Assembly: GCF_000003815.2 (NCBI RefSeq)
Contig: NC_049979.1
Span: 31,467,865 to 31,531,864, forward strand
DNA length: 64,000 bases
Direction of reading: 5' to 3'
Source: Branchiostoma floridae
Lineage: Eukaryota > Chordata > Leptocardii > Amphioxiformes > Branchiostomatidae
In this document: positions 7,926 to 33,439 of the stretch, piece after piece
Numbering within the stretch: the stretch's first letter is position 1
Layout: the number at the start of each line of letters is the position of its first letter
Made by a program: the position numbers and the translations under genes
Notes under the pieces: model-generated
What the model was told of the DNA's origin: nothing
What the model saw: only the letters and a program-made list of their open reading frames with translations
The model's database searches: none

Positions 7926-7929
7926 TTGA

Positions 7930-8855
7930 CCCTGTCTAGACGGGGGGGGGGGGGGTTGGCTAAAAGTGCCTGCGCCAACTTTGACGTCGTATAACTGCCG
8001 AACGACGTGTGCTAGGACTACGAAACTATGTGACTTTTCCTAAAATATTGTTAGCAACAATTCTGTGAAAAAAATTTAGTTTGTGATTTTTCTTGTTGCC
8101 ATGGCAACGGGTTTCTGACAGGCATACTTTACCAAATTTACTAATTTCAGTTTGAATTATGGGATTTCATAGTTTTATTGGTAGACCAAACTTGTTTATG
8201 TATATCATTAAGATCCTGTGTAATTTTAAGTTACATTTCTAATCAATTATTCATAATTTATGCTAATTTGATGACGTCATGGGTCAAAATCCAAGTTTGC
8301 GGACAATACCATTTTCAACGATAAATACTAGTACATGTTATTTTTACTCAAATTCCGTCAAAATCTTTTATTTTCTTACAAAACACAATCATTTGAGCCT
8401 TTTTAGTCCACTTCTATTGGGTTTTGGGGTTATATGTGGAAAAAAATCGTATTTAAAAAAATTCAAGCTTGTCGATCCAAGATGGCAGACAAATGACGTC
8501 ACTTCCTGACGTCATATTGGCGTCAGTGTCGTCGTCATTGGCAACAAAAGACTTGGCAGACTTAGACACCAATAAGATAACCTTTATAGTCATCGTTTTC
8601 TTTAATACCTTTATGTATAGCGGAAATTTCATATTTAGACGATTTAAGCCTAAAATATGACATTATGACGTCATAATTACGTCATATTATGTCATAACGA
8701 TACCAAACTTACAGAAAATATAAAACTTTACTAGTACATCATCCCCTCCAAATTTGGTGATCGTTACCCAAGCGGTTTTGAAATTACGAAGGGGGGGGGT
8801 CAAAAGAGCCCCCCACCGTCCCAGGTATCCCAAAAAAAGCCCGGTCTAGATAGGG
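7930..8855. mobile_element. TTAA-type non-autonomous DNA element (MITE), copy 1
   Basis: The right end reads GTCTAGATAGGG followed by TTAA at 8856-8859. The left end reads CCCTGTCTAGACGGGG and is preceded by TTGA, a one-base-decayed TTAA. So the 926-bp element has inverted ends CCCTNTCTAGAC, each followed inward by a long G run (C run at the other end). Terminal CCCT with a TTAA target is the pattern of piggyBac-like elements, and Kolobok elements also use TTAA. No transposase is encoded. The inside matches two further copies at 9085-10839, including blocks around TTTTCCTAAAATATTGTT, ATTCATAAATTATGCTAAT and repeated TGACGTCA. Confidence 0.75.
8095..8108. promoter_or_regulatory. X-box-like palindrome inside MITE copy 1
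   Basis: GTTGCCATGGCAAC is a perfect 14-bp palindrome and matches the consensus X-box bound by RFX factors. The related copies have decayed forms at 9157 (GTTGCCATGGTTTC) and 9682 (GTTGCCTCGACAAC). Binding is not shown. The site may instead be part of the element's own structure. Confidence 0.4.
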
Positions 8856-9520
8856 TTAAATTAAATTCTATTCTTCATTTATGTCACGATTGACAAATAT
8901 ATTCAAAAATTAATTTTTTCTCACTGAATTACTAACAATTTAATACTATCATTGAATATATATCCGTTAAAAGCACATTAGTTTGCTTTCTTTGCTCAAG
9001 CAATATCGACAGGAATATCATTTACAACAGTAAATGCCACATCTAAAAAAATATTGCCTTCCTTGTAAAAAAAAAAAAAAACAACCAAACTTAGTGAGTT
9101 TTCCTAAAATATTGTTGGCAACAATTTACCATAAAAAAAAGTTTATAATTTTTCGTGTTGCCATGGTTTCTAAAAGGCAAATTTGACAAAAATCACTAAT
9201 TTTGGTTTAAACAATGGGATTTTAATATTTTCTTGCTAAACTTAACTTTTTTATATATCTTTAATATCTAACACATCTTAGTTGAACATTTATAATTAAA
9301 TATTCATAAATTATGCTAATGAGATGACGTACTTGGTCAAAATCCAAGATGGCCGACAATATCATGATGAAAAGTAGAACCAGCTTATTTTCACTCAGGT
9401 TTCATCACTACTTGGTATTTTCATACAGCAAACATTCATGTGAACGTTTTTAATCTAATTTTATGGAGTTTTAGCGTTAGATGTTGAAAAAAATGTATCT
9501 TAAGGTTTAAGGAGATTTAA

Positions 9521-10468
9521 CCCTATTCAGACCGGGGGGGGGGGGCTTTTGAGGCCCGCGCCAACTTCGATGTCCTATAACGCCAGAACGGCTTACGCTA
9601 GAGCCACCAAATTTAGTGAGTTTTCCTAAAATATTGTTGGCAACAATTTTACGAAGTTTGACAAATTTTCCATTGTTTTGTGTTGCCTCGACAACCGTTT
9701 GTTGACAGGTAGTTTTGCCAAAAATCACTATTTTTGGTTCTAACAATGTATTTTTCACATGTATTTGCTATATTACTGCTATTTTGTTACATAAACAAAA
9801 TCTTATATTATTTAGCATATCTTTCATAATTATATATGCATAAATTGTGCTAATTTGATGACCTCATCAGCCAAAAATCCAAGATGGCGGACCGCATGGC
9901 CAGATCAAGAATAACAAGCTAATTATCCCTTAAAATTTGTAACTACCTGGTATTTTTCATCAAAAACCATCTAAATGAATGAATTTAGTCTAGTTTCATT
10001 GCCCTTTGTAATTATTTGTTGCAAAAAAAGGATTTTCAAAAATTCAAGGTGGTTGATATAATATGGCGGAGCCCAACTCGTATCTTAGATGTGCATGACG
10101 TCATTTTATGACGTCATTTTGACGTCATTGATGTTGCCATTGGAAACGCAAGTCGTAATAAACATTATTTTTCTGTTATCTGCACTTGTTCTTACATTTT
10201 ATTAGCATAACTTGAAGTTTTCTGAGAATACCCCTTTTTCATGGATCCGGCCAATATAATCAAATTGATGACGTCATAATTACGTTATCTTACGTCAACG
10301 TAACGTGAAACGTCAAATCCTTGTCAGATATTATGTCGACATCATGTCCTAAAAATTTGGTAGCCCTACGGCACGTCGTCTTAGAGTTATAGGACTTAGA
10401 AGTGGAGGGCCTCAAAAGCCCCCACCCCCCGGTCCAGGGATGACCAAAAAACCCCAGTCTGAATAGGG
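9521..10468. mobile_element. TTAA-type MITE, copy 3, nested in copy 2
   Basis: This is a complete 948-bp element flanked by intact TTAA on both sides (9517-9520 and 10469-10472). The ends are CCCTATTCAGACCGGGG and its complement CCCCAGTCTGAATAGGG. The subterminal GGGGGCTTTTGAGGCC is repeated inverted near 10405-10430. It has no coding capacity. It sits at a TTAA inside a relative, so it inserted later, and its termini are the best preserved of the three. Confidence 0.8.
10096..10127. promoter_or_regulatory. Cluster of three TGACGTCA (CRE-like) palindromes
   Basis: TGACGTCA occurs at about 10096, 10109 and 10120 inside MITE copy 3. Further copies lie near 8272, 8494, 8509, 8666, 10268 and 10511, all within this element family. 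The octamer is the CREB/ATF consensus. Its repeated spacing of about 11-13 bases makes it a structured array, not a single chance site. Confidence 0.4.
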
Positions 10469-10485
10469 TTAAGGTTGATAATCCA

Positions 10486-10496
10486 AGATGGCGGCT
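10486..10496 (+). promoter_or_regulatory. YY1-like site AAGATGGCGGC in MITE copy 2
   Basis: This is an exact match to the extended YY1 consensus. Near-identical cores occur at the matching places of the other copies: AAGATGGCGGAC at 9881, AAGATGGCCGAC near 9347 and AAGATGGCAGAC near 8479. Sequence match only. Confidence 0.35.
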
Positions 10497-10914
10497 AGAT
10501 AAACTACAGATGACGTCATTTTGACGTCGTTGCGTCGGTTTTTGACAACATAAGTCTTAAAACACTTAAATATCGATAAGAAACCTTTGTTGGTAACTTT
10601 TTGTGTGAAATACTTAGGTATTATGGGAATTCGCCCATTTTAGCACAAAAAAATAATGGCGCCATAATCACGTCCTATTACATCATAATGAGATTAAAAT
10701 TTCAGGAATCATAAAACTCGCCGAGCATATCATCCCCTCCAAATTTGGTAATTGTACAGTTAGCCGCTTTGAAAATACGGAAGGGGTCGAAAGCCGCCCC
10801 CAGGCCAGGGAATGCCAAAAAAGCCCAGTATGGATAGGGTTAATGGCAAATGTACACAGTCTATAAGAAGATCAATCGCATATAAATATCAAGTAAAGTT
10901 CCTATCCATATGAC

Positions 10915-11245: not shown

Positions 11246-14200
11246 GTATCTGCCTGCTTCACTGTCTTTTAGAATCAAAACCTGTCTGTCTGCTTCCCTG
11301 TCTGTGTGCAACCCTGTCTGTCTGCTACCCTGTCTGATTGCTTCCATGCCTTTCTTCTTGCCAGTCTGTTTGCTTTAATGTCTGTCTGCTTCCCTGCCTC
11401 TCAGCCTACCTACTGTCTACCACACTGCAACCATGTCTGATTGCTTCCCTGTCTGACTGCAACACAGTCTGGCTGCCACCCTGCTCTCTGCTCCCATGTC
11501 TGTCCGATTACCTGTCTGTTAGCAACCCTGTTTGATTGCTTCCATGTCTTTCTGATTCCCTGTCTGCTTCCCTGTCTGTCTACAATCCTGTCTGATTCCC
11601 TGTCTGTCCGAATCCCTGTCTGTCTGCAACACTGTCTGATTGCTTTACTGTCTGTCTGCACCCCTGTCTGTCTGATTCCATCTCTGTCTGCTTCCATCTC
11701 TGTCTGCTTCCATGTCTGTCTGCTTCCCTGTCTATCTGCAAACCTGTCTGTCTGCGAACCTGTCTGTCCACCACCCTGTTTGTCTGCTTCCATATCTGTC
11801 TGCTTCCCTGTCTGTTTCCCTGTCTGTCTGTAACCCAGTCTGTCTGAATCCCTGTACTGGCACCCTGTCTAGCTCCCTGTCTACCTGGCACCCTGTCAGT
11901 CTTGCTTTCTGTTTGTCTGGCATCCTGTCTTTCTAATTTCCCTGTTTGTCTAGCTCCCTATCTGTCTGGCTCCCTATCTGTCTGGCACCCTCTCTGACAC
12001 ACTGTCTGTCTGATACCTGTCTGTCTGGCTCCCTGTCTGGCTGGCTTCCTGTATGTCCCTGTCTGCCTTGCACCCTGTCTGGCTGAATCACTGACCGTCT
12101 GACTCTCTGTCTTTCTGATTGCTTGTCTGTATTATTCCCTGTCTCTTTGATTGCCTGTCTGTCTGACTTCCTGTCTGTCTGGCACTCTGTCTTTCTGGCT
12201 CCTTGTCTACCTCTCTGTTTGTCTGGCTCCGTGTCTGTCTTGTTCCCTGTCTGTCTGACTCCCTGTCTTTATGGCTCCCTACCTGTCTGGCACCCTGTCT
12301 AGCTACCTGTCTAACACCCTATCTAGCTCCCTGTCTGACTCCGTGTCTGTCTGGCTTCCTGTCTGTCTGGCTTCCTGTCTGTCTGGCTTCCTGTCTGTCT
12401 GTCTCCCTGTCTGCCTAGCATCCTGTCTGTCTGACTCCCTGTCTGTCTGACTACCGGTCTTTATGTCTCTCTGTCTGCCTGGCACCCTGTCTGTCTGATT
12501 CTCTGTCTGTCTGGCACCCTGTCTGTCTGCTTCCTTGTCTGTCTAATTCCCTGTCTGCCTTGCACTCTGTCTGTTTGATTCCCGGTCTGTCTGATTCCCT
12601 TTTCTGTCTGATTCCCTGTCTGACTCCCTGTCTGTCTGACTTTCTGTTTGTCTGGCTCCCTGCCTGTCGACTCCCTGTATGTCTAACTCCCTGTCTGCCT
12701 GACTCCCTGACTGTCTGACTCCCTGTCTGTATGGCTCAGTGTCTGTCTGGCACCCTGTCTATGACTCCCTATCTGTCTCTCTATCCTGTCTAGCTCCCTG
12801 TCTAGCTCCCTGTATGCCTCCCTGTCTGTCTGACTTCCTGTCTGTCTGGCACCTTGTCTGTCTGGCTTCCTGTTTGTCTGACTTATTGTCTGTCTGGCAA
12901 CCTGTCTGTCTGGCTCCAGGTCTGTCTGACTCCCTGTCTTTATGACTCCCTAATTGTCTAACTCCCTATCTGTCTGACTTCCTGTCTATCTGGCTCCATT
13001 CGGCTCATTGTCTGCCTGTCTGGCTCCCAGTCTGTCTGGCTCCCTGTCTGTCTGACTCACTGTGTGTCTGAATCCCTGTCTCTCTGTCTCCCAGTCTTTC
13101 TGTCTCCCTGTCTGTCTGGCTCCCTGTTTGTCTGAATCTCTGTCTGTCTGACTCCGTGTCTGTCTGTCTCCCTGTTTGTCTAATTCCCTGTCTGTCTGAC
13201 TTGCTGTCTGTATGGCTCCCTGTCTGTCTGGCACCAGGTCTATGGCTCCCTGTCTGTCAATCTATCCTGTCCAGCTCCCTGTTTAGCTCCCTGTCTAGCT
13301 CCCTGTCTAGCTCCCTGTCTGTATAGATCCCTCCCTGTCTGGCTCCCTGTCTGTCTGACTCCCTGTCTGTCAGACTCCCTGTCAGTCTGGGACGCTGACT
13401 CCCTGTTTGTCTGACTCCCTGTTTGTCTGACTCCCTGTCTGTCTGACTCCCTGTCTGTCTGGCACCATGTCTGTCTGGCTTCCTGTCTGTCTGGCTCCCT
13501 GTCTATCTGGCTCCCTTTCTGTCTGACTCCCTGTCTGTCTGGCTCCCAGTCTGTCTGTCTCCCTGTCTGTCTGACTCCCTGTCTGTCTGACTTGCTGTCT
13601 GTATGGCTTTCTGTCTGTCTGGCACCAGGTCTATGGATCCCTGTCTGTCACTCTATCCTGTCCAGCTCCCTGTCTAGCTCCCTGTCTAGCTCCCTGTCTA
13701 GCTCCCTGTCTAGTTCCCTGTCTAGCTCCCTGCCTAGCTCCCTGTCTGTCTAGATCCCTACCTGGCTGGCTCCCTCTCTGCCTGACTCCCTGTCTGTCTA
13801 ACTCCTTGTCTGTCTGACTCCCTGTCTGTCTGACTCCCTGTCTGTATTGCTCCCCGTCTGGCTGGCACCCTGTCTATGGCTCCCTATCTGTCTCTCTATC
13901 CTGTCTAGCTTCCTGTCTAGCTCCCTGTCTGATTCCCTGTCTGTCTGACTTCCTGTCTGTCTGATTCCCTGTCTGACTGATTCCCTGTTTGTCTGGCACC
14001 CTATCTGTCTGGCACCCTGTCTTCCTTTCTGTCTTGCAACCTTTCTGTCTAACTCCCTGTCTTTTTGTCTCCCTGTCTAAATGATTCCCTGTCTGTTTAA
14101 CTCCTCATCTGCCTGTCTGTCTTGCTCCCTGTCTCTCTGGCACCCTGTCTATGGCTCCCTGTCTGTCTCTTTATCCAGTCTAGCTCCCTCTCCAGCTCCC

Positions 14201-14753
14201 TATCTAGCTTCCTGTCTGACTCCCTGTCTGTCTGACTCCCTGTCTGTATCGTTCCATGTCTGTCTGGCACCCTGTCTGTCTCTATCCTGTCTAGCTCCTT
14301 GTCTAGCTCCATGACTGCCTCGCTATCTGTCTGACTTCCTGTCTGTCTGCTGACTTCCTGTCTGTCTGGCTCCCTATTTGGCTGCCTTCCTGTCTGTCTG
14401 GCATCCTGTCTGTCTGACTTCCCGTCCGCCTGGCTTCCTGTTTGTTTGGCTCCCTGTCCGTCCGGCTCCCTGTCTGTCTGGCATCCTGTCTGTCTGGCTC
14501 CCTGACTGTCTGACTCCCTGTCTGTCTGTTTCCCTGTCTATCCGACTCGCTGTCTGGCTCCCTGTCTATATGGCGCCGTTCGGCTCATTAGCTCCCTGTC
14601 TAGCTACCTGTCTGTCTGGCACCCTGTCTATATGGCTCCCAGTCTGTCTGGCCCCGTGTCTGTCTGGCTCCCTGTCTATCTGGCTCCGTTTGTCTCCTTG
14701 TCTGCCTGTGTGGCTCCCTGTCTGTCTGGCTCCATTTCTGTCTCACTCCCTGT

Positions 14754-15830
14754 CTGACTGAATACCTGTCTATCTGTCTACCTGTGTGTCTAACTCCCTT
14801 TATGTCTTAATCGCTGTCTGAATGACTCCCTGTCTATCTGGAACCAGGTCTATGGCTCCCTGCCTGTCACTCTATCCTGTCTAGCTCCCGGTCTAGCTCC
14901 CTGTTTAGCTCACTGTCTAGCTCCATGTTTGTCTAGCTCCCTGTCTGCCTGTCTGCCCGTCTGTAAGGCATCCTGTCTGCCTGACTCCCTATCTGTCTAA
15001 CTCCCTGCCTGTCTGACTCCCTGTCTGTCTGACTTCCTGTTTGCTGGCACCTTGTCTGTCTGGCATCCTGTCTGTCTGGCAACCTATTTGTCTAACACTC
15101 TGTCTGTTTGGCTCACTGTCTGTTGACTCACTTTCTGTCTGACTCCCTTTCTGTCTGATTCCCTGTCTGTCTGATTCCTTGTCTGTCTGACACCCTGTCT
15201 GTCTTGCTCCCTGTCTATCTGGCTCCGTTCGGCTCCTTGTCTGCCTGTGTGGCTCCCTGTCTGTCTGGCTCCATTTCTGTCTCACTCCCTGTCTGACTGA
15301 ATACCTGTCTATTTGCCTATCTGTCTGTCTAACTCCCTGTCTGTCTGAGTCGCTGTCTGAATGACTCCCTGTCTATCTGGAACCAGGTCTATGGCTCCCT
15401 GTCTGTCACTCTATCCTGTCTAGCTCCCTGTCTAGCTCCCTGTTTAGCTCACTGTCTAGCTCACTGTATGTCTAGCTCACTGTCTGAATGTCTTCCCGTC
15501 TGTAAGGCATCCTGTCTGTCTGACTCCCTATCTGTCTAACTCCCTGCTTGTCTGACTCCCTGTCTGTCTGACTTCCTGTTTGCTGGCACCTTGTCTGTCT
15601 GGCATCCTGTCTGACTGTCTTCCTGTCTGTCTGGCAACCTATCTGTCTGGCACTCTGTCTGTTTGGCGCACTGTCTGTCTGACTCCCTTTCTGTCTGATT
15701 CCCTGTCTGTCTGACTCCCTTTCTGTCTTACTCCATGTCTGTCTAACTCCCTGTCTGCCTGACTCCCTGTCTGCCTGACTCCCGTCTGTCTGGCGCCGTT
15801 CGGTTCCTTTTCTGCCTGTCTGACTCCATG
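14754..15830. repeat. 539-bp higher-order tandem duplication within the satellite
   Basis: Non-consensus markers recur in the same order at a fixed offset. TGTAAGGCATCC is at 14962 and 15501. CTGGAACCAGGTCTATGG, CTGACTGAATACCTG and TTTGCTGGCACCTTG show the same offset of about 539 bases. The offset is not a multiple of 16, so the copies arose by block duplication of the array and not by single-unit slippage. An independent 128-bp (8-unit) duplication lies at about 17851 and 17979. Confidence 0.7.
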
Positions 15831-16086
15831 TCTGCCTGGCACCTGTACCCTGTCTTTGACCCACTGTCTGTTTGCCTATCCTGTCTAGCTCCCTGTCTAG
15901 CTCCTTGTCTGCCTCCCTGTCTGTCTAGAATTTCTGTCTGTCCTGCACTTTGTCTCTCTGGCTCCCTGTCTGGCTGTCTTCCTGTCTGTCTGGCACCCTG
16001 TCTGTCTGACGCCGTTTGACTCCCTGTCTGTCTCGGTCCCTCTCTTGTCTGGATCCCTGTCTGGCTGACTCCCTGTTTGCCGGACT

Positions 16087-16186
16087 NNNNNNNNNNNNNN
16101 NNNNNNNNNNNNNNNNNNNNNNNNNNNNNNNNNNNNNNNNNNNNNNNNNNNNNNNNNNNNNNNNNNNNNNNNNNNNNNNNNNNNNN
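16087..16186. other. Assembly gap (100 N) in the satellite
   Basis: Exactly 100 N, a conventional placeholder of unknown true size. The same satellite is on both sides, so the real array may be longer or shorter. Confidence 0.95.
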
Positions 16187-19028
16187 TGTCTGTCTGGCTC
16201 CTGTCTGTCTATCTCCCTGTCTGCCTGATTCCCTGTCCTTCTGTCTCCCTGTTTGTGTGACTCCATGTCCGTATAACTACCTGTCTGTCTGGCTCCCTGT
16301 CTGTCTGGCTCCCTGTCTGTTTGGCATCCTGTCTGTCCCACTCCCTATCTGCCTGGCACCATGTCTGTCTGGTTTCATGTCTGGCGCTGTTCAGCTCCTT
16401 GTCTGCCTGTCTGGCTCCCTATTTGTCTGGCTCCCTGTCTGTCTGACTCCCTGTCTGTCTGGCATCCTGTCTGTCTGGTGCCGTTTGGCTCCCTGTCTGT
16501 CTCGGTCCCTATCTGCCTGAATCCCTGTCTGTCTGGCTCCCGTCTGTCTGGCGCCGTTCGGTTGCTTGTCTGCCTGTCTGACTACCTGTCCGTCTGATTA
16601 CCTGTGAGTCTGGCACCCTGTCTTTGGCCCCCTGTCTGTCTCACTCCCTGTCTGTCTCACTCCCTGTCTGTCTCACTCCCTGCCTGTTTGGCATCCTGTC
16701 TGTCTCACTCCCTGTCTGTTTAACTCACTGTCTGTCTGATTCCTTGTCTGTCTGACTCCCTGTCTAAGTGACTCCATGTCCGTCTGACTACCTGTCTGTC
16801 TGGCTATCTGTCTGTCTCGGTCCCTCTCTGTCTAGCTCCCTGTCTGTCTGGCTCCTAGTCTGTTGGACTCCTTGTCTGTCAGACTCCCTGTCTGTCTGGC
16901 TCCCTGTCCTGCTGGCTCCCTGTCTGTTTGCCTCCCTGTCTCTCTGGCAACCTGTCTAGCTCACTGTCTAGCCCACTATTTGACTCCATGTCTGCTTGTA
17001 ACCCTGGCTGGCTGGCTGGCTCCCTGTCTGGCTCACTCCCTGTCTTTCTCACACCCTGTCTGTTTGGCATCCTGTCTGTCTGACTACCTGTCTGTCTGAC
17101 TCGCTGTCTGAATGACTCCCTGTCTAACTGGAACCAGGTCTATGGATCCCTGTCTGTCACTCTATCCTTTCTAGCTCCCTGTCTAGCTCCCTGTCTAGCC
17201 CCCTGTCTAGCTCCCTGTCTGTCTCACTCCCTGTCTGTCTGATTCCATGTCTGTCTAACTCCCTGTCTGCCTGACTCCCTGACTGTCGGTCTATCCTGTC
17301 TAGTTCCCTGTCTGACTCCTTGTCTGTCTGACTTCCTGTCTGTCTTGCACCTTGTCTCTCTGGCTCCCTGTCTGTCTGGCTTCCTGTCTGTCGGACTCCC
17401 AGTCTGTCGGACTCCCTGTTTGTCTGGCCCCCTGTCTTGCTGGCCCCCTGTCTGTCTGCCTCCCTGTCTCTCTGACAACCTGTCTAGCTCCCTGTCTAGC
17501 CCACTATTTGACTCCTTGTTTCTCTAACTCCATGTCTGCCTGTAACCCTGTCTGTCTGGCTCCCTGTCTGTCTGGTTCCCTGTCTGTCTCACTCCCTGTC
17601 TGCCTCACAACCTGTCTGTTTGGCATCATGTCTGTCTCTCTGCCTGTCTGCCTGGAACCATGTCTGTCTGGTTTCATGTCTGTCTGGCTCCCTGTCTGTC
17701 TTGCTCCCTGTCTGTCTAACTCACTGTCTGTCTGATTCCCAGTCTATCTGTGTCCCTGTCTGTGTGACTCCCTGTCTGTCTGGCACCCTGTCTGTCTGGC
17801 TCCCTGTCTGTTTGGCATCATGTCTGTCTTACTCCCTGTCTTTCTGTCTAGCTTTCTGTCTGACTCCATGTCCGTCTGACTACCTGTCTGTCTGACTCCC
17901 TGTCTGTCTGGCACCCTGTCTGTCTGGCTCCCTGTCTGTTTGGCATCCTGTCTGTCCTACTCCCTGTCTTTCTGTCTAGCTTTCTGTCTGACTCCATGTC
18001 CGTCTGACTACCTGTCTGTCTGGCACCCTGTCTGTCTGGCTCCCTGTCTGTTTGGCATTCTGTCTGTCTGACTCCCTGTCTGTCTGGCACCATGTCTCTC
18101 TGGCTTAATGTCTGTCTGACTCCCTGTCTATCTGGCTCCCTGTCTATCTGGCTCCCTGTCTGTCTAACTCCCTGTCTGTCTGATTCATTGTCTGTCTGAC
18201 CCCATGTCTGTCTGGCGACGTTCGGCTCCTTGTCTGCCTGTCTGGCTCCCTATTTGTCTGGCTCCCTCTCTGTCTCGGTCCCTCTCTGTCTGGCTTCCTG
18301 TCTGTCTGGCTCCCTGTCTGTCTGTCTTCCTGTCTGTCTGGCTCCCTGCCTAGTTGGCATCCTGTCTGTCTGTCTGGCTCCCTGTCTGTCTGGCACCATG
18401 TCCGTATAGTTTCTTGTCTGTCTGGCTCCCTGTCTGTCTTGCTCCCTGTCTAACTCCCTGTCTGTCTAACTCCCTGTCTGTCTGATTCCCTGTCTGTCTG
18501 ACTCCATGTCTGTGTGACTCCATGTCCGTCTGACTACCTGTCTGTCTGGCTATCTGTCTGTCCGGAACCCTGTCTGTCTGGCTCCCTGTCTGTTTGGTAT
18601 CCTGTCTATCTGACTCCCAGTCTGTTTGGCACCATGTCTGTCTGGCTTAATGTCTGTCTGGCTCCCTGTCTGTCTTGCTCCCTGTCTGTCTAACTCCTTG
18701 TCTGTCTGATTCATTGTCTGTCTGGCTCCCTGTCTGTCTGGCGTCGTTCGGCTCCTTGTCTGCCTGCCTGGCTCCCTGTCTGTCTGTCTCCCTGTCTGTT
18801 GACTCCCTGTCTGCCTGACTCTCTGTCTGCCTGACTACCTGTCTGTCTGGCTCCCTGTCTGTCTAACACCCTGTCTCTCTGGCTCCCTGTCTGTCTGGCA
18901 CCCTGTCTGTCTAACTCCTTGTCTTTCTCACTCCCTGTTTGTATGGCTTCCCGTCTGTCTGGCAACCTTTCTGTCTGACTCCCTGTCTGTCTGGCTCCCT
19001 GTCTGTCTGGCTCCCTGTCTGTCTGACT

Positions 19029-32016: not shown

Positions 32017-33428
32017 ATGAATAAACAAGGTTCAAACACGCAGGTAAACAGTGCCCCTGTTGGGTGATAAACATCTCGTCTGTTGTAGTAAACACACCAT
32101 TAGCACAACATGTTTGTGATGTAAATAAACAAGGTTCAAACACGCAGGTAAACAGTGCCCCTGTTGGGTGATAAACATCCCGTCTGTTGTAGTAAACACA
32201 CCATTAGCACAACATGTTTGTGATGTAAATAAACAAGGTTCAAACACGCGGGTAAACAGTACTCGTGTTCAGTGATAGACAGCCCGTCTGTTGTAGTAAA
32301 CACACCATTAGCACAACATGTTCGTGGTTCAAACAGGCGGGTAAACCATACCCCTCTTGGGTGATATACTGTTTTCTGTTGTAGTAAACACACCATTAGC
32401 ACAACATGTTTGTGATGTAAATAAACAAGGTTCAAACACACAGATAAACAGTGGCCCTGTTGGGTGATAGACGCCCCGTCTGTTGTAGTAAACACACCAT
32501 TAGCACAACATGTCTGTGATGTAAATAAACAAGGTTCAAACACACAGATAAACAGTGGCCCTGTTGGGTGATAGACATTCCCGTCTGTTTTAGTGAACAC
32601 ACCATTAGCACAACATGTTTGTGATGTAGATAAACATGGTTCAAACACACAGATAAACAGTGGCCCTGTTGGGTGATAGACATTCCCGTCTGTTTTAGTG
32701 AACACACCATTAGCACAACATGTTTGTGATGTAAATAAACAAGGCTCAAACACACAGATAAACAGTGGCCCTGTTGGGTGATAGACATTCCCGTCTGTTT
32801 TAGTGAACACACCATTAGCACAACATGTTTGTGATGTAGATAAACATGGTTCAAACACACAGATAAACAGTGGCCCTGTTGGGTGATAGACATTCCCGTC
32901 TGTTGTAGTAAACACACCATTAGCACAACATGTTTGTGATGTAGATAAACAAGGTTCAAACACGCGGATAAACAGTACTCCTGTTGGGTGATAGACGCCC
33001 AGTCTGTTGTAGTAAACACACCATTAGCACAATATGTCTGCGGTTCAAACACGCGGGTAAACAGTGCCCCTTTTGGATGATAGACGCCCCGTTTGTTGTA
33101 GTGAACACACCATTAGCACAACATGTTTGTGATGCAAATAAACAAGCTTCAAACACGTGGGTAAACAGTACTCGTGTTCGGTGATAGACGCCCAGTCTGT
33201 TGTAGTAAACACGCCATTAGCACAACATGTGTGTGATGTAAATAAACAAGGTTCAAACACGCGGATAAACAGTACTCGTGTTCGGTGATAGACGCCCAGT
33301 CTGTTGTAGTAAACACGCCATTAGCACAACATGTTTGTGGTTCAAACACGCGGGTTAACAGTGCCCCTGTTGGGTGATAGACGCCCCGTCTGTTGTAGTA
33401 AACACATCATTAGCACAAGATGTTTGTG
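32017..33428. repeat. 105-bp satellite, about 14 copies
   Basis: The unit is recognised by CCATTAGCACAACATG, TTCAAACACRC, AAACAGTGCCCCTGTTGGG and CGTCTGTTGTAGTAAACAC. CCATTAGCACA recurs about 14 times from about 32096 to 33407. Most intervals are 103-106 bases; a few of about 84-90 lack the GATGTAAATAAACAAG part. Because 105 is a multiple of 3, one minus frame stays open for 275 codons with a 35-residue period; I treat this as a by-product. Several central units share a CATTCCCGTCTGTTTTAGTG variant, so that part expanded most recently. Confidence 0.92.
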
Positions 33429-33439
33429 ATATAAAAACA

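Follow-up and report, generated by a model that had tools for sequence, protein, structure and literature searches.

Why some non-autonomous transposons succeed is an open question, and their ends alone are insufficient as an answer. The question is raised by positions 7930 to 10839 of a 64-kb stretch of the Branchiostoma floridae genome (contig C1, 31467865-31531864; hereafter the window), which hold three related non-coding elements, here called A, B and C. They are miniature inverted-repeat transposable elements (MITEs) of piggyBac type, and they form a real group of families in which internal sites resembling those of host transcription factors are conserved beyond background; the spread of regulatory sites through the genome is a putative by-product. 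Three families have kept common host-factor-like sites, and separating inherited from private variants within each family can in principle tell selection on the element from selection on the host. We lean towards the explanation that the sites were retained by selection on the transposing lineages of the piggyBac-type MITE families A, B and C, and give it a little better than an even chance. If the sites do give access in the germ line, this would provide a direct, testable rule for MITE success.

Three nested MITEs and their families

Reading of the region, together with a scan for direct and inverted repeats, showed that the three elements share a common orientation, CCCT...AGGG ends and TTAA targets. 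Element A (7930..8855, + strand) is 926 bp long. Its right TTAA lies at 8856..8859, and its left target (7926..7929) reads TTGA, a single base off TTAA, as judged by sequence reading and family comparison. Element B (9521..10468, + strand; 948 bp) has a terminal inverted repeat (TIR) of ~95 bp and is inserted in C, with its left TTAA within C at 9517..9520 and its right TTAA at 10469..10472. When the flanks of B were joined, they aligned with A and B as one element, C, composed of a left part (9084..9516, + strand), a right part (10473..10839, + strand) and a right TTAA (10840..10843). Comparison with the C consensus showed that the initial ~85 bp of the family sequence are absent from the left part. 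At the point where B splits the window's C, the consensus of 20 other C copies has a single TTAA (TTTAAGG), which is the empty site; B jumped into C later, at a TTAA. An earlier note, made from the sequence alone, had placed three related, nested, TTAA-flanked MITEs with CCCT...AGGG ends at these positions, and it was correct apart from the TTGA at the left of A. At another locus (L007, positions 1-700), the right half of a C-like element adjoins an inverted A/C-like element that ends at GGGTTAA, which may be a further instance of nesting.

The inverted repeat at the ends of B extends over 85 columns at 82% identity, the A and B consensuses have perfect 16-bp terminal ends, and the terminal sequence of the MITEs is TTAACCCTAT[T/C]CAGACC. 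No stop-to-stop open reading frame of at least 110 amino acids was found in 7930-10839, and Rfam gave no match within the window at gathering scores. The target of piggyBac is TTAA, and piggyBac-type transposases act in trans. A, B and C are non-autonomous piggyBac-type MITEs of ~0.9 kb, a class assignment that rests on anatomy, with the transposase inferred. CC[C/T]T is described as a hallmark of piggyBac ends in a passage of PMC2872659. Kolobok elements and T2-MITEs have the TTAA target in common with A, B and C, but their termini differ: T2-MITEs end in AGGRR and Kolobok in RR, according to a section of PMC6004289. A Kolobok origin was ruled out because the ends here read CCCT rather than AGGRR or RR.

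Each element is part of a high-copy family. In the window's genome assembly (513.4 Mb, 431 contigs) we scored the best 40 of 3053 first-look candidates for A, the best 40 of 2559 for B and the best 40 of 2522 for C, window copies included, with identities of 87-100%, 91-100% and, over the left half, 87-100%, respectively. Some scored places are partial, and the copies are top matches to the window's elements, not a random sample. Exact TTAA stood on both sides in 32 of the 39 fetched B copies. In the other seven, one right site was altered in each of L042 and L044, TAAA stood on both sides in L009, the left side of L025 and L043 was unreadable as the alignment starts in a G-run, and L045 and L047 were cut. 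Consensuses were built from 30 loci for A (913 bp) and 40 copies for B (949 bp), both with the window copy, and from 20 loci for C (922 bp), with the window copy excluded; the 40 B copies were 96.0-98.5% identical to their own consensus. Outside their own genome, AAAATCCAAGATGGCGGAC had 0 matches in viral contigs and CCTAAAATATTGTTGGCAACAATTT had 0 in a collection of genome contigs. No title listed in a literature search concerned these elements, and the families may already be catalogued in Repbase. A composite repeat in locus L003 (2990-3944), starting TTAACCCTATTCAGACCGGG, has a stretch in common with the right part of B, in reversed orientation (76%), followed by many GACGTCACGTA-type units.

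Conservation of the internal sites and proposed selection on the element

Going by motif resemblance, we take TGACGTCA to be a cAMP-response element (CRE; CREB/CREM-type), GTTGCCATGGCAAC an X-box (RFX-type) and CCAAGATGGCGG a YY1-type site. The consensuses of A, B and C contain four, five and three TGACGTCA, respectively. All three contain CCAAGATGGC, and AAGATGGC is found twice in A, once in B together with a derived ATATGGCGG, and twice in C. A perfect GTTGCCATGGCAAC is present in all three consensuses and intact in 24/30 A, 36/40 B and 16/20 C copies. The earlier note had raised the chance that a consensus from many copies would lack the motifs; all three consensuses carry TGACGTCA, CCAAGATGGC and GTTGCCATGGCAAC.

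Identity between consensuses is 0.653 for A-B, 0.781 for A-C and 0.702 for B-C. We compared 78 columns of the B consensus, covering the motif kinds of the earlier note plus B's derived ATAATATGGCGG, which we added. Of these motif columns, 0.910 were invariant across the three consensuses, against 0.532 elsewhere, a result matched by 1/948 circular shifts. Invariance was 0.925 for TGACGTCA columns (reached by 1/948 shifts), 1.000 for X-box columns (24/948) and 0.818 for three GTTGCC palindromes (6/948), and the longest invariant blocks include TTTTTCGTGTTGCCATGGCAAC, ATGACGTCATAATTACGTCAT, TTTTCCTAAAATATTGTT and CAAAATCCAAGATGGC. The A-B pair alone gave a similar picture, with TGACGTCA at 0.975 against a shift mean of 0.640 (0/948 shifts reach this); the wider motif set used for that pair includes further post-hoc sites. 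The internal site set was held while the remaining sequence diverged to 65-78% identity. That the palindromes merely reflect the structure of the element, an alternative offered at the outset, fits less well, given the position of the named sites outside the terminal repeats and their higher conservation between families than that of their surroundings. We also rejected a cruciform or hairpin as a conserved feature: in a comparison of A and B, the long palindrome round the last TGACGTCA was found in the A consensus only (columns 713-755).

The sites might nevertheless be without function, as ancestral motifs surviving by chance, words that mutate more slowly, or a product of biased copy choice. 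The copies were indeed picked by similarity, which favours this explanation, whilst conservation between three consensuses that only 1/948 shifted sets could match argues against it. Variation within the families bears on the same point. A variant found in at least two copies was treated as inherited and a variant in one copy as private; homopolymers were removed, the outer 100 bp were excluded from the background, and stretches below 75% local identity (our own threshold) were masked. In the pooled, masked families, shared variants were found in 4/96 TGACGTCA columns (Fisher p = 0.0002) and 4/72 CCAAGATGGC-type columns (p = 0.006), against 316/1788 of the rest. The deficit was also present without masking, at 7/96 and 4/72 against 462/2189 (p = 0.0004 and 0.0005), which again speaks against a lack of function. 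The C copies were found by their left half only, yet their right-half TGACGTCA had 0/24 shared-variant columns after masking (3/24 unmasked), a count that is not significant alone. Amongst CpG columns, 1/24 inside TGACGTCA carried a shared variant, against 29/66 elsewhere (p = 0.0003). Private CpG mutations were somewhat rarer inside TGACGTCA (8/738 cells against 42/1945 elsewhere, p = 0.078), as lower methylation or mutability would give, and B was the only family significant by itself; both observations fit sites without function. On balance we consider that explanation very unlikely.

Private mutations were mildly reduced in the sites. Across the three families they affected 27/2951 TGACGTCA cells against 673/52543 (ratio 0.71, p = 0.09) and 15/2148 CCAAGATGGC-type cells (ratio 0.55, p = 0.017 uncorrected), with ratios of 0.75 for GTTGCC-type sites (p = 0.1) and 0.98 for TGACGTCA half sites (p = 1). 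Masking lowered the private mutations in the TGACGTCA of C from 20/448 to 10/407 cells and its shared-variant columns from 3/24 to 0/24; we attribute the unmasked values to copies that are non-collinear on the right side. If many copies had been co-opted as enhancers or promoters, with the sites kept by host selection, a depletion of private mutations would be expected, and in A and B together TGACGTCA and CCAAGATGGC-type sites had somewhat fewer (30/4232 cells against 436/40708, ratio 0.66, p = 0.025). However, this depletion is weak, as the value for TGACGTCA alone in three families illustrates, and it is implausible that the host would constrain thousands of copies. The private mutations show no sign of strong constraint by the host on the majority of inserted copies. 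The pooled inherited-variant signal is stronger than the private depletion, which places selection before insertion. We rate host co-option as the least probable of the explanations considered. The data suggest that lineages in which the sites were lost failed to multiply, and that inserted copies decay nearly freely. The motifs were thus kept beyond background, as the earlier note had asked, between families and in pooled inherited variants, with no more than a mild effect in private ones. Its alternative, a function of the sites for the element itself, suits the data better than their use by the host in many copies.

Under selection on the element lineages, an ancestral element would have carried the internal set, comprising several TGACGTCA, one or two CCAAGATGGCGG and GTTGCC/GGCAAC palindromes, and a piggyBac-type transposase would have moved its descendants into TTAA. 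Elements with the sites would have left more copies, as between-family conservation and the split between inherited and private variants suggest. In the germ line, where an element has to transpose, bound CREB/CREM-, RFX- and YY1-type factors may maintain its DNA in an accessible or transcribed state, and most copies would decay nearly freely once inserted. The genome-wide spread of ready binding sites would then be a by-product, with occasional host use possible. Mouse spermiogenesis has CREM and RFX2 amongst its essential sequence-specific factors (PMC4498915), so that a combination of CRE and X-box would be reasonable in a germ-line element. A more specific and more tentative proposal, which we think may be true but rather doubt, is that the sites form an internal cassette for germ-line access. 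Its predicted CREB/CREM, RFX and YY1 sites would open chromatin or drive transcription for a transposase acting in trans, element-only selection would have kept it over three diverging families, and it would now be a main source of the host's perfect X-boxes.

Several results weigh against selection on the element lineages. The inherited-variant signal comes mostly from B, in which 0/40 TGACGTCA columns had a shared variant against 108/592 (p = 0.0007). Taken alone, A gave 4/32 against 132/590 (p = 0.27), and C gave 0/24 against 76/606 when masked (p = 0.10) and 3/24 when unmasked (p = 0.32); for CCAAGATGGC-type sites the values were p = 0.32 in A, 0.013 in B and 0.34 in C. This per-family result slightly lowered our confidence in the reading, which remains just above even. 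In the pooled data, shared variants in GTTGCC-type columns (14/114, p = 0.16) and in TGACGTCA half sites (7/66, p = 0.18) did not differ significantly from background. The test takes columns as independent though copies share ancestry, and its p values are uncorrected. Between families, the invariance of CCAAGATGGC-type columns (0.833) was reached by 82/948 shifts and is alone not beyond chance, and two of the three GTTGCC palindromes, B's ATAATATGGCGG and the CArG-like site were chosen after the alignments had been seen. The factor identity of the sites is itself a prediction from motif resemblance. An autonomous partner with the MITE's CCCTATYCAGACC ends was not found among the 12 loci read of 25 with a piggyBac transposase domain. 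Finally, the gene sets under the control of CREM and of RFX2 in mouse are for the most part distinct, according to PMC4498915.

The sites in the window and across the genome

Word searches located the sites in the window's own copies. In A, TGACGTCA occurs at 8272..8279, 8494..8501, 8507..8514 and 8666..8673. The third lies 13 bp past the second, a spacing also present in the B and C consensuses, and the fourth lies inside ATGACGTCATAATTACGTCAT, as in all three consensuses. B has three TGACGTCA at 10096, 10109 and 10120 (10096..10127) and a fourth at 10269..10276, in the conserved ATGACGTCATAATTACGT block. In C there is one (10511..10518), and its consensus has three. YY1-type sites, all on the + strand, comprise CCAAGATGGC in A (8477..8486), where the family consensus reads CCAAGATGGCGG; CCAAGATGGCGG in B (9879..9890); and two sites in C, the first being CCAAGATGGC followed by CG (9344..9353) and the second CCAAGATGGCGG (10483..10494). 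The X-box palindrome GTTGCCATGGCAAC is perfect in A (8095..8108). At the corresponding position of B (9682..9695) the window copy is degenerate and reads GTTGCCTCGACAAC, and C retains one half, GTTGCCATGG (9157..9166). The window's B and C have decayed at sites that are intact in their families. Alignment also revealed a conserved palindrome, ATTGTT[A/G]GCAACAAT, at 8047..8061 in A, with a corresponding site in B and C, and a repeat and word scan found CCAAATTTGG, which we take to be a CArG-like site, at 8748..8757 in A and 10739..10748 in C. The earlier note had ascribed several TGACGTCA and an X-box-like palindrome to each element and an exact YY1 consensus to 10486. For the window copies, the first applies to A and B and not to C, the second is perfect in A alone though in every consensus, and the YY1-type site is present but starts at 10483, with 10486 inside it, and is accompanied by the one at 9879.

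Compared with dinucleotide shuffles, A, B and C together hold nine TGACGTCA (A 4, B 4, C 1) against 0.029 expected, four CAAGATGGC against 0.009 and one 14-mer GTTGCCATGGCAAC against 0.000. The rest of the 64-kb window is free of all three words. Since the copies counted are related, the occurrences are not independent events, and conservation is the better test.

Across the genome, perfect GTTGCCATGGCAAC occurs 2,478 times, against 1 for a reversed-pattern control. When the families' downstream context was added, 1,020 sites remained (517 + 503; control 0), and this context pattern recovered 75/76 intact sites in the sampled copies. About 41% of the genome's perfect X-boxes come from the three families or very close kin. 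The genome also contains 2,776 CCAAGATGGCGG (1420 + 1356; control 10 + 10) and 10,244 ATGACGTCAT (control 1,391). On C1 below 28.7 Mb, CCAAGATGGCGG lay within 500 bp of 12/17 context X-boxes (0.04 expected) and of only 4/29 other perfect X-boxes, and 19/66 CCAAGATGGCGG had a perfect X-box at that distance or less. Over the initial 5.0 Mb of C1, covered by both lists, a perfect X-box was found within 1 kb of 7/50 ATGACGTCAT, and ATGACGTCAT within 1 kb of 4/11 perfect X-boxes. We rejected an origin of every genomic CRE and YY1-type site in these elements, since most of those compared on C1 lie away from perfect X-boxes; TGACGTCA and CCAAGATGGCGG are also plentiful in other repeats. Two such places on C1 were eight ATGACGTCAT ~365 bp apart (2442520-2445074), which form a tandem array of CREs and probably do not belong to the MITEs, and ten CCAAGATGGCGG mostly ~200 bp apart (29270421-29272549), another motif-rich repeat.

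The abundance of the sites throughout the genome is what host co-option would lead one to expect. Their placement is not: the context sites are clustered in one block of C1, unlike a distribution driven by promoters. Amongst the 100 context X-boxes listed on C1, up to 33.23 Mb, 17 lie below 29.9 Mb and 83 in 29.94-33.23 Mb, which corresponds to densities of 0.57 and 25 per Mb, respectively. The window (C1:31.47-31.53 Mb) lies within this block, where the elements are strongly concentrated. We also checked the best 40 places of each family for proximity to contig ends, omitting two A places and one B place on small contigs. Within 4 Mb of an end lay 25/38 A places (11.9 expected, 0/5000 simulations), 17/39 B places (12.3 expected, 379/5000) and 16/40 C places (12.6 expected, 776/5000). 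General clustering at contig ends was thus rejected, as it holds for A only.

The earlier suggestion that the elements spread regulatory modules is borne out insofar as thousands of such sites are present, whilst use of them by the host stays hypothetical. As a by-product of transposition, perfect X-box, CRE and YY1-type sites would have accumulated in the genome in large numbers, and motif-based regulation maps of this animal would mislead unless repeats were masked.

Elsewhere in the window, 11281-19028 is occupied by a ~7.7-kb degenerate CCTGTCTGTCTG tandem repeat with periods of 12, 16 and 48 bp and a strong pyrimidine bias on the + strand. At 32020-33435, a unit of ~105 bp is repeated in tandem and the - strand has long open frames, and an open frame at 5053-5529 matches a galactose-binding / F5/8 type C domain (PF22633, E 2e-9; PF00754, E 5e-7).

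Transposase loci and known systems

A profile search with the piggyBac transposase domain (PF13843) gave 25 matches in the genome, and 12 of these loci were read. A TTAA+CCCT end was found at one side in L079-L082 and L084 and at both sides in L085, the ends reading TTAACCCTTGTCC, TTAACCCTAGTCC or TTAACCCTCAA; the remaining six had no TTAA+CCCT end within their 1.5-kb flanks. In the 12 loci, TGACGTCA was found once, in L082, AAGATGGC on neither strand, and GTTGCCATGG nowhere on the one strand searched. Locus L084 has repeated CATAATTTATGCAAAT at 235-256 and 595-625, a sequence similar to the MITEs' conserved CATAATTTATGCTAAT block, an octamer-like word.

These loci bear on a further explanation, that the sites are internal transposition enhancers recognised by the transposase or a dedicated cofactor, their likeness to host-factor sites being incidental. 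As such enhancers would be, blocks in the interior of the elements are conserved across the three families, and piggyBac-related coral MITEs also keep their internal region better than their TIRs (in the relevant part of PMC2872659). However, 11 of the 12 transposase loci read lack TGACGTCA, all lack AAGATGGC, and GTTGCCATGG is absent from the strand searched. The match to three different host-factor consensuses is also not explained by one transposase. We consider transposition enhancers unlikely, and retain selection on the element lineages, through their host-factor-like sites, as the favoured explanation.

The elements resemble other MITEs of the piggyBac superfamily in their TTAA target, CCCT...AGGG ends, absence of coding capacity and numerous homogeneous copies, and differ from them in carrying dense conserved host-factor-like sites. 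A, B and C are also longer than the usual MITE. A different kind of mobile element, human L1, has a YY1 site at its 5' end which is required for L1 transcription. Both it and the MITEs are mobile and carry CAAGATGGC-type and other host-factor sites, but a non-autonomous DNA transposon, unlike L1, has no need of transcription. LanceleTn elements are likewise MITEs of amphioxus. A text search of the main text of PMC2872659, on coral CMITEs, returned no mention of TGACGTCA, "palindrom" or "transcription factor". These coral elements are nevertheless the nearest precedent. As that paper describes them, they are much shorter than A, B and C (96-108 bp). Their ends are of piggyBac type, their families differ less in the internal region than in the TIRs, and a role of this region in transposition is suspected by the authors.

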